Below are positions 10,692 to 14,591 of a stretch of 64,000 nt of DNA, one piece after another. The notes beneath the pieces were generated by a model. That model ran no database searches, was not told where the DNA came from, and saw only the letters and a program-made list of their open reading frames with translations. The stretch lies in the NCBI RefSeq assembly GCF_013391635.1, contig NZ_JACAWU010000002.1:620001-684000 (forward strand), in the 5' to 3' direction. The stretch comes from Natronomonas gomsonensis (GTDB taxonomy: Archaea; Halobacteriota; Halobacteria; Halobacteriales; Haloarculaceae). Made by a program: the position numbers and the translations under genes. The first letter of the stretch is position 1, and every line of letters begins with the position of its first letter.

Positions 10692-11320
10692 GTGTGGGTC
10701 TCGTCAACTCGTGCGGTTTCCTCTTCGCCTCGTGCCAGCGCCGCCTGTCCGGTCCGAGCGATTTCTCGGATGCCGAACTGCTCGTAGGCGTCGATAGCGT
10801 CGTCTATCTTTCCCTCGTCGCCGGTAATCTGGACCGTAATCGTCCGTGGGCCGGCGTCGAGCGTCTCGCCGCCGTACATCTCCGTGATAGCCTGAACCTT
10901 GTCCGGCTCGTCACCGTTGACCTTCAGGATGACCAACTCGCGGGCGACGGGTTCGGCGTCCAACTCCCGGACGTGGACGACCGGAAGCAGTTTGTTCAAC
11001 TGCTTTTTCGCCTGGTCGATGCCGGGGTCGGGTTCCTCGATGACCAGCGTGATGCGGGAGTAGCCCTCGTTTTGGGTCGGTCCGACGGTTAGCGACTCGA
11101 TGTTGAACTGTCGGCGGTGGAACAGTCCCGAGACGCGCGCGAGCACGCCGGGTTCGTCCTTGACGTACGCCGAGATGATGGTCCGGCGCGGTTCGTGTTC
11201 GGCCTCCACGTCGGGGTCGACGCGGATGCCCTGTTTGTTTCGTCGACCGACCGGTCGGGTGCGCTCTTCGGGGGCCGGGCCTTCCAACCCGTTCCGGTGG
11301 ACGTTCTGGTTGCGGCTCAT
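10688..11320 (-). CDS. ilvN: Acetolactate synthase small (regulatory) subunit
   Basis: Regulatory subunit of acetohydroxyacid synthase. After a haloarchaeal N-terminal extension (about 50 residues, charged), an ACT domain starts at [20 protein letters not shown], followed by [11 protein letters not shown], the loop where branched-chain feedback ligands bind in homologues. The second half ([38 protein letters not shown]) is the usual C-terminal domain. The 210 residues are slightly longer than bacterial IlvH because of the extension. It overlaps ilvB and ilvC by 4 bases each. Confidence 0.95.
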
Positions 11321-13062
11321 AGCTGGTCCTCCGAGAGTGCGAACTGCCCGTTGTCGCCGCCGCTGGGCACCATCGGGTAGACGTTCTCGCCGGGGTCGAT
11401 GTGGGCGTCGACGACGCTCGGCCCGTCGTAGGCCAGCGCCTCCTCGACGACCTCCTCGACCTCCTCGTAGGTGTCGATGCGGAAGCCGCGTGCGCCGAAG
11501 GCCTCAGCGAGCGTGTCGAAGTCCGGAATCCAGGGGTACTCCGAGGCCATGTGGCGTTCGCCGAAGAATGCGTCCTGCCACTGTCGGACCATCCCGATGG
11601 CCGCGTTGTTCAACACGACGATGGTGATGTCGAGGTTCTCACGCACCGCGACGGACAGTTCCTGACACGTCATCAGGAACGACCCGTCGCCGTCGAAACA
11701 GACCACGTCCTTGTCGGGCGCAGCCAGTTTCGCGCCGATGGTGGCGGGAACGCCGTAGCCCATCGCACCGAGGCCGTGAGACGACACCCACGTGCGGGGC
11801 TCCTTGTAGGTCCAGTACTGACAGGCCCACATCTGGTGTTGGCCGACGCCGGTGGTGACGATGGCATCGTCGTCGGTGGCGTTGTCGAAGGCCTCGACGA
11901 CGTACTGCGGTTTGACCGGGTCGTCTTCGGGCGCAGCGTAGTCCATCGGGTACTCGTCTTTCCACTGTTGGACCTGCTCGCGCCACTCGTCGCAGGCCGG
12001 CGAGCGCGGCATCGCCGTCGCCAGTTGTTTGGTGACGGCTTTGGCGTCGCCGATGAGCGGATAGTCGGCCTCGACGTTCTTCGAGACCTCCGCGGGGTCG
12101 ATTTCGACGTGGATGACCTCCGCGTCGGGCGCGAACGTCTCCAGCCCACCGGTCAGGCGGTCGTCGAAGCGCGTCCCGACTGCGAGCATGCAGTCGGTCA
12201 TCGTGATGGCCATGTTGGCGTAGCCGGTACCGTGCATTCCGGCCATCTCCAGGGAGAGTTCGTGGTCTTCGGGGAACGCGCCGATGCCGGGCATCGTCGT
12301 GACGACCGGAATCTCGTGTTCCTTCGCGAATTCCCGAATCTCCTCGGAGGCTTCGGCCTTGATGACGCCGCCGCCAGCGAGGATGACCGGTCGGTCCGCC
12401 TCGGCGAGCACGTCGGCGGCCTCGGCGACCGCTTCGGGTTCGGCCGTCTCCGGCGGGTTGTACGTGTCCGGCGTCTCTGGGGTGCCGGGGTCTTCGCTGG
12501 CGTCGCCTTTCGTCACGTCCTTCGGCAGGTCGACCAGGGTCGGTCCCTGCCGGCCGCGTTTGGCCAGCGCGAAGGCGGTGCCGACGTCGGTGCCGACCGT
12601 CTCCGAATCGTTGGCGAAGACGTTAGCCTTCGTGATGGGGCTGGTGACGCCGATGGTGTCGGTCTCCTGGAAGGCGTCGTTGCCGACGAACTCCGTGGGG
12701 ACCTGTCCGGTCAGCGCGATGAGGGGGTCCGAGTCCATGTTGGCGTCGGCGATGCCGGTGACGAGGTTCGTCGCCCCCGGCCCCGACGTGGCCATGCAGA
12801 CGCCCGGCTCGCCGGAGACGATGCCGTATGCGTCGGCGGCGTGGGCGGCGCCCTGTTCGTGGGCCATCGTGATGTGGTCCATCTCGGAGTGATACAGGGC
12901 GTCGTAGACGGGCATGATGGCCCCTCCCTGCACGCCGAATAGGTGTTCGACGCCGGCGTTCTCGAGTGCGCGGACGACCGCATCCGCGCCCGTCTCGATG
13001 TCACCGGTGGTCGTTTCGGACGTTTCGGCGTCCTGTGGTGCCTGTGCCTGTTCGCCGCTCAT
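11317..13062 (-). CDS. ilvB: Acetolactate synthase large (catalytic) subunit
   Basis: ThDP-dependent acetohydroxyacid synthase, first common step of valine, leucine and isoleucine synthesis. The 581 residues have the N-terminal pyrimidine-binding domain (HLFGVQGGAIMPVYDAL; glutamate in AHEQGAAHAADAYG), a central domain and the C-terminal pyrophosphate-binding motif running from GDGSFLMTCQEL to LNNAAIGMVRQWQ. Residues 1-25 are a polar tail. A strong ribosome-binding site GAGGTGA lies 6 bases upstream, consistent with a gene read from a long leader rather than leaderless. The leader region (13063-13285) carries a candidate attenuator. Confidence 0.96.
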   Translation of the reverse strand: MSGEQAQAPQDAETSETTTGDIETGADAVVRALENAGVEHLFGVQGGAIMPVYDALYHSEMDHITMAHEQGAAHAADAYGIVSGEPGVCMATSGPGATNLVTGIADANMDSDPLIALTGQVPTEFVGNDAFQETDTIGVTSPITKANVFANDSETVGTDVGTAFALAKRGRQGPTLVDLPKDVTKGDASEDPGTPETPDTYNPPETAEPEAVAEAADVLAEADRPVILAGGGVIKAEASEEIREFAKEHEIPVVTTMPGIGAFPEDHELSLEMAGMHGTGYANMAITMTDCMLAVGTRFDDRLTGGLETFAPDAEVIHVEIDPAEVSKNVEADYPLIGDAKAVTKQLATAMPRSPACDEWREQVQQWKDEYPMDYAAPEDDPVKPQYVVEAFDNATDDDAIVTTGVGQHQMWACQYWTYKEPRTWVSSHGLGAMGYGVPATIGAKLAAPDKDVVCFDGDGSFLMTCQELSVAVRENLDITIVVLNNAAIGMVRQWQDAFFGERHMASEYPWIPDFDTLAEAFGARGFRIDTYEEVEEVVEEALAYDGPSVVDAHIDPGENVYPMVPSGGDNGQFALSEDQL

Positions 13063-13112
13063 GAGGCGTCACCTCGCGTGCGATACCGTCGATTGCTGTG
13101 TCGTGTGTCCAT
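13059..13112 (-). CDS. Candidate 17-codon upstream ORF overlapping the ilvB start
   Basis: ATG at 13112 opens a 17-codon frame (MDTRHSNRRYRTRGDAS) whose TGA overlaps the ilvB ATG in ATGA, the same arrangement the structural genes of this operon use for coupling. The peptide is very basic, unlike the acidic proteome, and the ilvB ribosome-binding site lies inside the frame. Translation could clear or occupy that site. It may equally be a chance frame. Confidence 0.3.
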   Translation of the reverse strand: MDTRHSNRRYRTRGDAS

Positions 13113-13167
13113 TGTCCTGTCTGTAATCGGCTGAAAGCGATGCGAACCGCGTCGGAAAGAAGGGTGT

Positions 13168-13189
13168 GTAGGGGCTAGGCCGCCCCTAC
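13168..13189 (-). promoter_or_regulatory. Hairpin in the ilvB leader, candidate attenuator/terminator
   Basis: On the minus strand GTAGGGGC and GCCCCTAC form a perfect 8-bp stem with a 6-base loop. The stem begins in the last codons of the 24-codon leader ORF and the loop holds its stop codon. A second, earlier hairpin (arms CGCTGG and CCAGCG, 13203-13240) lies inside the ORF, and its GCCCC stretch (13209-13213 region) can pair with the GGGGC of the later stem, giving mutually exclusive folds. Only a weak pyrimidine run, CTTCTTTCC, follows; there is no long T tract. Confidence 0.5.
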
Positions 13190-13249
13190 AATAATCGTCG
13201 CGACGCTGGGGGCAAGCGCGAGCGTGCCGAGTCCAGCGGTCGCATTCAT
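13175..13249 (-). CDS. Candidate ilv operon leader peptide (24 aa)
   Basis: The frame reads MNATAGLGTLAL, then APSVATIIVGAA and TAG. Seven of 24 residues are Leu, Ile or Val, and it ends with consecutive Ile-Ile-Val encoded by ATT ATT GTA, codons that are uncommon in this GC-rich DNA. The ATG lies about 30 bases after a TATA-like CCTTATGT (13276-13283), so it would be at or near the transcript 5-prime end and be leaderless. The stop codon falls in the loop of the following hairpin. These are features of a branched-chain amino acid attenuation peptide; nothing here proves translation. Confidence 0.5.
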   Translation of the reverse strand: MNATAGLGTLALAPSVATIIVGAA

Positions 13250-13274
13250 TACAGTCGATGTTGTGCCGTGAACC

Positions 13275-13284
13275 GACATAAGGA
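13275..13284 (-). promoter_or_regulatory. Putative promoter of the ilvB operon leader
   Basis: CCTTATGT on the minus strand, a weak TATA-like element in the 126-base gap between the leuA stop and the leader ORF. It would start transcription at about 13250-13253, immediately before the leader ATG. Confidence 0.45.
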
Positions 13285-13375
13285 TTCCGTGTCGCGCGAG
13301 CGTTGCCCAACGGTTCGCCGGCGCGGCCGCTCACCGGTCGCTGCCACGGGGCGAAACCGTCCGCGGGGGGCATCC

Positions 13376-14591
13376 CTATGCGCGAACCTCCTCGCGTCGG
13401 ACGCCTACCTCCCGGGCCAACTCCTTGAGCGTCTCGAAGGTGACCTTCTCGTCGGCCGCGCCGCGGTCCTTGACCATCCGGGTCACTTCGCGGACCTCGG
13501 CGTCGCTCGGGTCGAACCCGGCTTCTTCCAGCCGTTGGCGGACGGAGTGAGTGCCGGTGTGTTTGCCGAGCACCAACTCGCGTGTCGCACCGACCATCTG
13601 CGGCGTCATCACGCCCGGCTCGAACGTGTCGGCGTTCTCGATGATGCCGGCGGCGTGGATGCCGGATTCGTGGGAGAAGGCGTTGTCGCCCACGATGGGC
13701 TTGTTCGCCGGGATGGCGATGTCGCTTTTGCCCTCCACGAGACGCGCCAGTTCCGTGATGCGCTCGGTTTTGATGCCGGTGTCGACGTCGTACAGCGACT
13801 CCAGCGCCATCACGACCTCTTCGTAGGCCGCGTTGCCGGCGCGTTCGCCGATGCCGTTGACCGACACCTGCGCCTGAGCGGCGCCGGCCTCGTAGCCGGA
13901 CAGCGCGTTGGCGGCCGCCAATCCGAAGTCGTCGTGGGTGTGGACGTCGATGTCGGCGTCCGTGTGCGCACAGACGGTCTCGACCATGTCGTAGAACCGC
14001 CGTGGCGTCGCAACCCCACAGGTGTCGGGAATGTTTATCCAGTCCGTCCCCGCGTCGGAGACGCCCTCGATGACATCAATCAGGAACGATTCGTCGGTAC
14101 GCGTGGCGTCCATCGGCGAGTACATGCAGGTGACACCGGCGTCCTTGACGCGCTCGACGGCCTCGATAGACCGTTCCAGCGCCTCCTCTCGGCTGGTGTG
14201 CATCGAATCCTGCAGTTGTACGTCACTCGTCGAACAGAACACGTGTACCATGCCGACGCCGGATTCCAGTGCGGCGTCGATGTCTTTGTCCACGACGCGG
14301 GCCAACCCGCAGACTGTGGACGACGTGGCTTCGGCGATGTCCCGTACCGCTTCGAACTCCGCATCGGAGTTCACGGGGAAGCCGGCCTCGATGACGTGGG
14401 TGCCCATGTCGTCGAGGACGGCAGCGATTTCGCGTTTGTCCTCGTAACTGAACGAGGTTCGCGGGGACTGTTCGCCGTCGCGCAGCGTCGTGTCGAAAAT
14501 TCGGGCCTCGCTTATCTCCGAGGTACTATCTAGCGTGCCCTGGAAGAACTCGATCCGCCGCCGAAGGCGACGTATCCTCGTGCTGTGTCAT
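13376..14591 (-). CDS. leuA: 2-isopropylmalate synthase LeuA (apparent 5-prime frameshift)
   Basis: DRE-TIM metallolyase that condenses acetyl-CoA with 2-oxoisovalerate. Motifs are DTTLRDGEQSPR (N-terminal), HTHDDFG, NGIGERAGNAAYEE and HESGIHAAG. At about 400 residues it lacks the C-terminal LeuA allosteric domain, the short LeuA/CimA-like form; operon context favours leucine. The leaderless ATG 14591, with TATTTAAAT at 14617-14625, opens a frame (MTQHEDTSPSAADRV) that stops at TAG 14526. The catalytic frame has no ATG, GTG or TTG before 14407, which would delete DTTLRDGEQ. Adding one copy of TCGAG near 14549-14553 joins the frames into AADRVEFFQGTL, the family sequence. So it is a real or sequencing frameshift. 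Confidence 0.85.

Follow-up and report, generated by a model that had tools for sequence, protein, structure and literature searches.

The haloarchaeal ilvB operon is preceded by a conserved leader that we interpret with good confidence as a ribosome-mediated attenuator, and the sensing of branched-chain aminoacyl-tRNAs, put forward in an earlier note on this DNA, stands as the best explanation of its sequence. Comparison of related leaders establishes a leaderless promoter, a short ORF (ORF1) whose frame, terminal codons and stop are kept, two covarying hairpins, a G-poor and U-enriched tract, and sister leaders whose codons match the pathway of the gene that follows. All coordinates are positions in the window, the 64,000-nt stretch of Natronomonas gomsonensis DNA that was analysed, and the leader elements all lie on its minus strand (Table 1).

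Table 1. Features of the ilvB leader region, in window coordinates
Feature	Positions	Strand	Remarks
leuA-like gene	end at 13376	minus	upstream of the leader
TATA-like box TTAT	13278..13281	minus	spacing to the ORF1 ATG 32 nt; leaderless promoter
ORF1, leader peptide MNATAGLGTLALAPSVATIIVGAA	13175..13249	minus	24 codons + TAG; ATG 13249-13247, TAG 13177-13175
Hairpin 1 within ORF1, candidate pause hairpin	13200..13243	minus	core CGCTGG 13238-13233 / CCAGCG 13209-13204; extended in the fold
Regulatory codons ATT ATT GTA (Ile-Ile-Val)	13187..13195	minus	end of ORF1
Hairpin 2, TGTAGGGGC 13190-13182 / GCCCCTACA 13175-13167	13167..13190	minus	fold and covariation; stop codon inside
G-free pyrimidine-rich tract CCCCTACACACCCTTCTTTCC	13154..13174	minus	after hairpin 2; U-enriched 11-14 nt past CCCC
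ORF2, second leader ORF MDTRHSNRRYRTRGDAS	13059..13112	minus	stop TGA overlaps the ilvB ATG (ATGA)
ilvB, acetolactate synthase large subunit	11317..13062	minus	NCBIfam TIGR00118, 712.8 bits over cut-off

Distribution of the leader in haloarchaea

The IlvB protein of the window is 99% identical to that of Natronomonas sp. CBA1123 (genome L002), and its gene is followed by ilvN (TIGR00119), ilvC (TIGR00465) and leuC (TIGR00170), each over the NCBIfam cut-off. The fold of the 94-nt leader was beaten by only 1 of 200 dinucleotide shuffles (z -4.5). A strict pattern, GGGGY(n)RCCCC followed by a G-poor tract, has a single match in the whole genome, which is the ilvB leader, and two strict hairpin-plus-tract patterns matched this genome at ilvB and argG only; the broad pattern GTAGGGGY(n)CCCC was dropped as a search motif, being far too common.

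The earlier note had called for an alignment of haloarchaeal ilvB upstream regions, and loss of the ORF and stems in relatives would have spoken against its reading. Among the relatives, the short ORF is conserved and both hairpins show compensatory pairing, and a covariance model covering 75 nt of the leader's 3′ portion gave matches (E ≤ 0.01) in 108 of 117 haloarchaeal genomes, spanning 42 of 45 genera. All primary matches whose flank was examined lie upstream of ilvB, and the same leader stands at nearly every ilvB locus with enough flank (80 named genomes and other species of the genus). When 295 genomes were drawn from across the phylum and searched at E ≤ 1e-4 with strict filters, all 38 matches fell within the haloarchaeal order and none in the approximately 242 non-haloarchaeal genomes. 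The leader matched no Rfam family, including the Trp, His, Leu and Thr leader families, at the gathering score or at E ≤ 1. Given its single strict-pattern match in the genome and its recurrence upstream of haloarchaeal ilvB, the leader is not a chance feature of the sequence. As the sequences are related, the p values given below are too small, and the thinned sets correct for kinship only in part.

Some Natrialbaceae (L018, L024, L033, L040, L042 and L049) have the hairpin GGGGCG/CGCCCC, with the leader stop after the hairpin and not inside it. Conserved-looking matches in two small genomes (L269 and L270) were set aside; they lie just past a gene end, and no Ile, Val or Arg leader was seen there.

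Reading frame, hairpins and a candidate coupling ORF

The 32-nt spacing between the TATA-like box and the ATG points to a leaderless start of ORF1, as in most relatives: the spacing is 32 nt in 82 of 131 leaders and 33 nt in another 28 (110/131 together). With the ATG picked solely by its distance from the TATA-like box, ATG and GTA share one frame in 124 of 131 leaders, where one third would be expected (p ~5e-50, inflated by relatedness). The codon at the base of the hairpin is GTA in all 137 leaders, although this is partly imposed by the search pattern for the later-collected loci. In the ilvB genes at those 137 loci, GTA accounts for 0.7% of Val codons. ATT is the preceding codon in 119/137 leaders, compared to 6% of Ile codons, and a stop follows 9 or 12 nt after GTA in 130/137. 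The leaderless-looking 24-codon ORF ending in ATT ATT GTA codons, as first described, is thus present in the sequence and kept in frame among relatives. By its conserved frame, promoter-defined start and stop, it is the short leader ORF that an attenuator has upstream of its operon.

Neither ORF1 nor ORF2 shows a third-position excess, and the interior amino acids of ORF1 are not under purifying selection. Peptide conservation was therefore rejected as evidence of coding, and translation of ORF1 is deduced from its frame, start and stop; a peptide free to drift is what would be expected of an attenuator leader. The same DNA can be read in another frame from the ATG at 13245, and this frame does end in Leu-Leu-stop as had been claimed, but it is not conserved and was rejected. 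In two leaders (L002 and L083), a 1-nt insertion in the C-run of ORF1 (C5 to C6) shifts the frame, and the IIVGAA frame is restored by another ATG, which lies 4 nt beyond the first and is equivalent to that at 13245.

Both hairpins described in the earlier note are present and conserved. Hairpin 2 has a perfect 8-bp core, GTAGGGGC (13189-13182) with GCCCCTAC (13175-13168), extended to 9 bp in the MFE fold, with the ORF1 stop codon at the border of its loop and 3′ arm. A naive count of covarying columns on a MAFFT alignment found nothing; since GTAGGGG is nearly invariant, we used arm-swap tests, in which the pairing of arms within a leader is compared with that between leaders in sets thinned for relatedness. 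In the thinned ilvB sets, the earlier hairpin (CGCTGG/CCAGCG in the window) covaries at z 3.3-3.5 and hairpin 2 at z 4.5-4.9 (z 3.5 and 4.9, respectively, at 72 dissimilar leaders). The argG leaders described below (n = 18) gave z 6.9 for hairpin 1 (range 5.5-6.9) and 5.1 for hairpin 2. Hairpin 2 overlaps both the regulatory codons and the stop, a geometry from which its dependence on the ribosome would follow.

It had also been proposed that TTGCCCC in hairpin 1 pairs with GGGGCGG of the later stem, giving four segments with exclusive pairing. The two can pair in this sequence, but the exclusive switch is not conserved: pairing of the upstream CCCC with the 5′ arm GTAGGGGC (2:3) was no better than in arm swaps of the thinned sets (z 0.9-1.7), so that the classical series of exclusive 1:2, 2:3 and 3:4 pairings was not found, and the upstream GCCCC is the best partner of the 5′ arm in only 5 of 137 leaders. 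Likewise, no conserved pairing was detected between the 3′ arm of hairpin 2 and the region down to ilvB (z -0.4), and both kinds of pairing were rejected. Over most of the 17 positions that follow the CCCC in the 137 leaders, G is at 0-3%, the exceptions being +8 (27%, mostly one family) and +15 (18%), and T reaches 35-56% at +11 to +14. A U run directly after the hairpin, as in bacterial Rho-independent terminators, was not found; the U enrichment is confined to +11 to +14.

Our analysis added a second small ORF, absent from the earlier note, between the tract and ilvB. The set compared comprised 91 distinct ilvB loci. In 79 of 84 cases, the first ATG past the spacer leads in frame to the TGA that overlaps ilvB (p 9e-32), and ORF2 is complete in 77/91, with a length of 8 to 36 codons. 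Ile, Leu and Val together account for 2.3% of its codons, whereas the two alternative frames of this DNA have 13.9% and 8.4% and IlvB has 18%. The ORF1 stop and the ORF2 start are approximately 60 nt apart. As termination-reinitiation in Haloferax requires overlap or very short gaps (PMC10666635), ORF2 could hand ribosomes to ilvB, whereas ORF1 could not hand them to ORF2.

Sister leaders at argG, valS and an ilvB paralogue

Leaders whose codons match the amino acid of the pathway concerned were found at ilvB, an ilvB paralogue, valS and argG, and none at trpC; other operons were sampled through pattern matches and through the argG, valS and trpC searches only. The argG, valS and paralogue leaders are additions to the earlier note. 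A stray pattern match led to the leader of a gene that we take, from its sequence, to be argG. In this genome it encodes MTQTHRSGASVLTGGYSILRRPRPGR followed by a stop, has two hairpins (G000:C1 ~703520-703600, L267) and is conserved across haloarchaea. The argG leader ORFs, leaderless and chosen without regard to their Arg content, contain Arg at 37% of their final 12 codons and at 9.6% of the others, and they carry a stop-bearing hairpin of other sequence (GGGCC/GGCCC, GGGGTC/GACCCC or CGGGC/GCCCG).

Secondary matches of the covariance model precede the valine--tRNA ligase gene valS (NCBIfam TIGR00422), with leader endings VFVGAP-stop, VRVGAS-stop or VVGA. The leader of a second valS type, to which the valS of this genome belongs, is a leaderless ORF of 6-12 codons with GTA GTA in 15 of 16 loci and SVVR or VVR kept in 15/16; here it reads MSASQSVVRGL and stop, with the rare GTA GTA, upstream of valS at G000:C1 532168 (L268, L340). 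Read from the sequences, a basic ORF comparable to ORF2 overlaps valS in the valS leaders, but it contains Val. In Natrialbaceae-type valS leaders (L145-L153, L183), a conserved block of about 50 nt, CCGTTTCGACGGATGTATTGTCGCCGACC, follows the hairpin; it opens with a possible UUCG hairpin and is present even in L183, where the attenuator hairpin was not detected.

Two ilvB paralogues have leaders ending in GIIGIIGIIGA and SIIGA, with the same hairpin and with ATT replacing GTA. In 11 genomes, GGGGC(n)TAGCCCC in the context of a leader ORF occurred only at ilvB, at valS and once at argG. No leader was found at 30 trpC loci of the same genomes, and trpC was rejected as a further attenuated operon. 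Taken together, the argG, valS and paralogue leaders, with none at trpC, indicate that the regulatory codon changes with the pathway but the layout is retained, and we regard them as the strongest evidence in the sequences that the regulatory codons matter. The haloarchaeal trpC promoters (L310-L339) carry a palindrome-like block, GTACnnnnnnGTAC, between TATA and ATG; it is operator-like and a candidate site for a repressor.

Proposed mechanism, alternatives and known systems

In haloarchaea, transcription and translation are coupled (PMC8576121). We propose that the first ribosome loads at the leaderless 5′ end while hairpin 1, which precedes the regulatory codons and thus occupies the place for a pause hairpin, would pause RNA polymerase. 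With an ample supply of charged tRNA-Ile and tRNA-Val, the ribosome would reach the stop codon and leave, hairpin 2 would fold and ilvB expression would be cut off. Under tRNA shortage, it would stall at the ATT and GTA codons and cover the 5′ arm of hairpin 2, which would then be blocked, and the operon would be read. Because the regulatory codons abut hairpin 2 and the stop lies inside it, the geometry points to a stalled ribosome directly occluding the hairpin, and not to a 1:2/2:3/3:4 switch. Release at the stop would have to be fast, since a ribosome on the stop codon would itself block hairpin 2. ORF2, nearly free of Ile, Leu and Val codons, could carry ribosomes into ilvB even in starved cells. 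The stall, the termination and the amino-acid response are what we infer from this arrangement of elements.

The likeliest output, and a probable one, is that transcription ends early at the U/pyrimidine tract, whether RNA polymerase stops unaided or through aCPSF1/FttA, since terminators of the T-stretch type are known from Haloferax volcanii, where hairpins also lie immediately ahead of 503 termination sites (PMC7237163). Against intrinsic termination, the U tract is short (the earlier note had pointed to the shortness of the pyrimidine run) and lies 10 nt beyond the hairpin, unlike that of a textbook intrinsic terminator. The weak tract would suit a different output of the same sensor, in which hairpin 2 or stalling alters ORF2/ilvB translation or mRNA decay (translational attenuation). 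The conserved ORF2 overlapping ilvB would also fit this, as would the sequence GAGG(TGACG)CCTC in the window, which could mask the ilvB ribosome site, and a GC hairpin at the valS start in valS leaders. We nevertheless consider such an output unlikely: the 3′ arm of hairpin 2 has no conserved partner down to ilvB, the ORF1 stop is too far from the ORF2 start for Haloferax-type reinitiation, and a G-free, U-enriched tract past the hairpin is what a terminator requires.

It is improbable that the nascent peptide (IVGA or VFVGA) acts as an arrest peptide, stalling the ribosome on a free metabolite and not on uncharged tRNA. VGA does precede the stop in both ilvB and valS leaders, but it is imposed by the GTAGGGGC of the hairpin; argG leaders end in RPGL or RRAF, the interior of ORF1 drifts, and what is fixed is the rare GTA and ATT codons rather than the amino acids. 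Still less probable is a DNA operator, the palindrome GTAGGGGC-n-GCCCCTAC bound by a repressor with the ORF incidental. Its position downstream of the promoter and the near-invariance of GTAGGGG in ilvB leaders would agree with an operator; however, the conserved ORF1 frame, the covariation of the arms, the different palindromes in the same layout at argG, and the codons ahead of the hairpin, which follow the pathway, all argue against it. An ordinary conserved promoter with a translated upstream ORF and no amino-acid-responsive regulation would leave unexplained the pathway-matched codons at three gene families as well as the fixed rare codons and covarying hairpins, and we give it the least credence of all.

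Ribosome-mediated attenuation is a textbook bacterial mechanism. In the enterobacterial trp, his and ilv attenuators (Yanofsky type), a leader peptide with codons for the operon's own amino acid and hairpins precede the structural genes. The haloarchaeal leader shares with them the codons of the controlled amino acid, a pause-like hairpin 1 and a hairpin before the structural genes, but lacks a conserved 2:3 antiterminator, and its regulatory codons, placed past hairpin 1, adjoin the 5′ arm of hairpin 2. Mycobacterial polycysteine sORFs, reportedly described by Canestrari et al. in 2020 as leaderless and rich in codons for the amino-acid product of the operon they precede, resemble it by that description, although they are bacterial and concern cysteine. 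Archaeal DNA-binding proteins of the TrpY/Lrp type control amino-acid biosynthesis operons, the class on which this leader would act. The trpC genes of the same genomes, with an operator-like promoter palindrome and no leader, suggest that two regulatory logics coexist.

Closest in layout are the ilvB(NC) leaders of the actinobacteria Corynebacterium, Mycobacterium and Streptomyces, in which a short ORF with Ile, Val and Leu codons likewise overlaps a terminator hairpin upstream of ilvB (PMC1262725, PMC11857589, PMC13236596). In contrast to the haloarchaeal leader, these are bacterial and carry Rho-independent terminators with poly-U behind them, and that of M. tuberculosis has a leadered transcript and a proposed separate antiterminator. 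The haloarchaeal leader differs in starting leaderless, in placing rare ATT and GTA codons at the base of a hairpin that also holds the stop, in having a G-poor tract whose U patch lies some way off, and in ORF2. According to an archaeal transcriptome paper of 2014, neither attenuators nor riboswitches had direct experimental support in Archaea (PMC4247193), and we found no archaeal case of ribosome-mediated attenuation in the open-access literature. The kind of mechanism is known from bacteria, and the proposed archaeal case is new as far as that literature shows.

We think it quite likely that a general haloarchaeal system exists, of leaderless ribosome-occlusion attenuators (ilvB, argG and valS, all in this genome). 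They would respond to tRNA charging and work through the archaeal termination machinery, and a coupling ORF free of branched-chain codons would leave ilvB translatable during starvation. If so, it would be the first ribosome-mediated attenuation in the domain Archaea, transcription-translation coupling would serve regulation where the polymerase resembles RNA polymerase II and the terminators are archaeal, and Haloferax volcanii would offer an easy genetic test of the interplay between the ribosome and archaeal termination.

A separate observation concerns the leuA-like gene. Its ATG, which has a good TATA box (window 14570-14500, minus strand), is out of frame with the leuA body, in which the segment IEFFQGTLDST lies in +1 and lacks an ATG, GTG or TTG start; the sequence is identical in L002. 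The cause may be a genuine frameshift, an atypical start or a programmed event.
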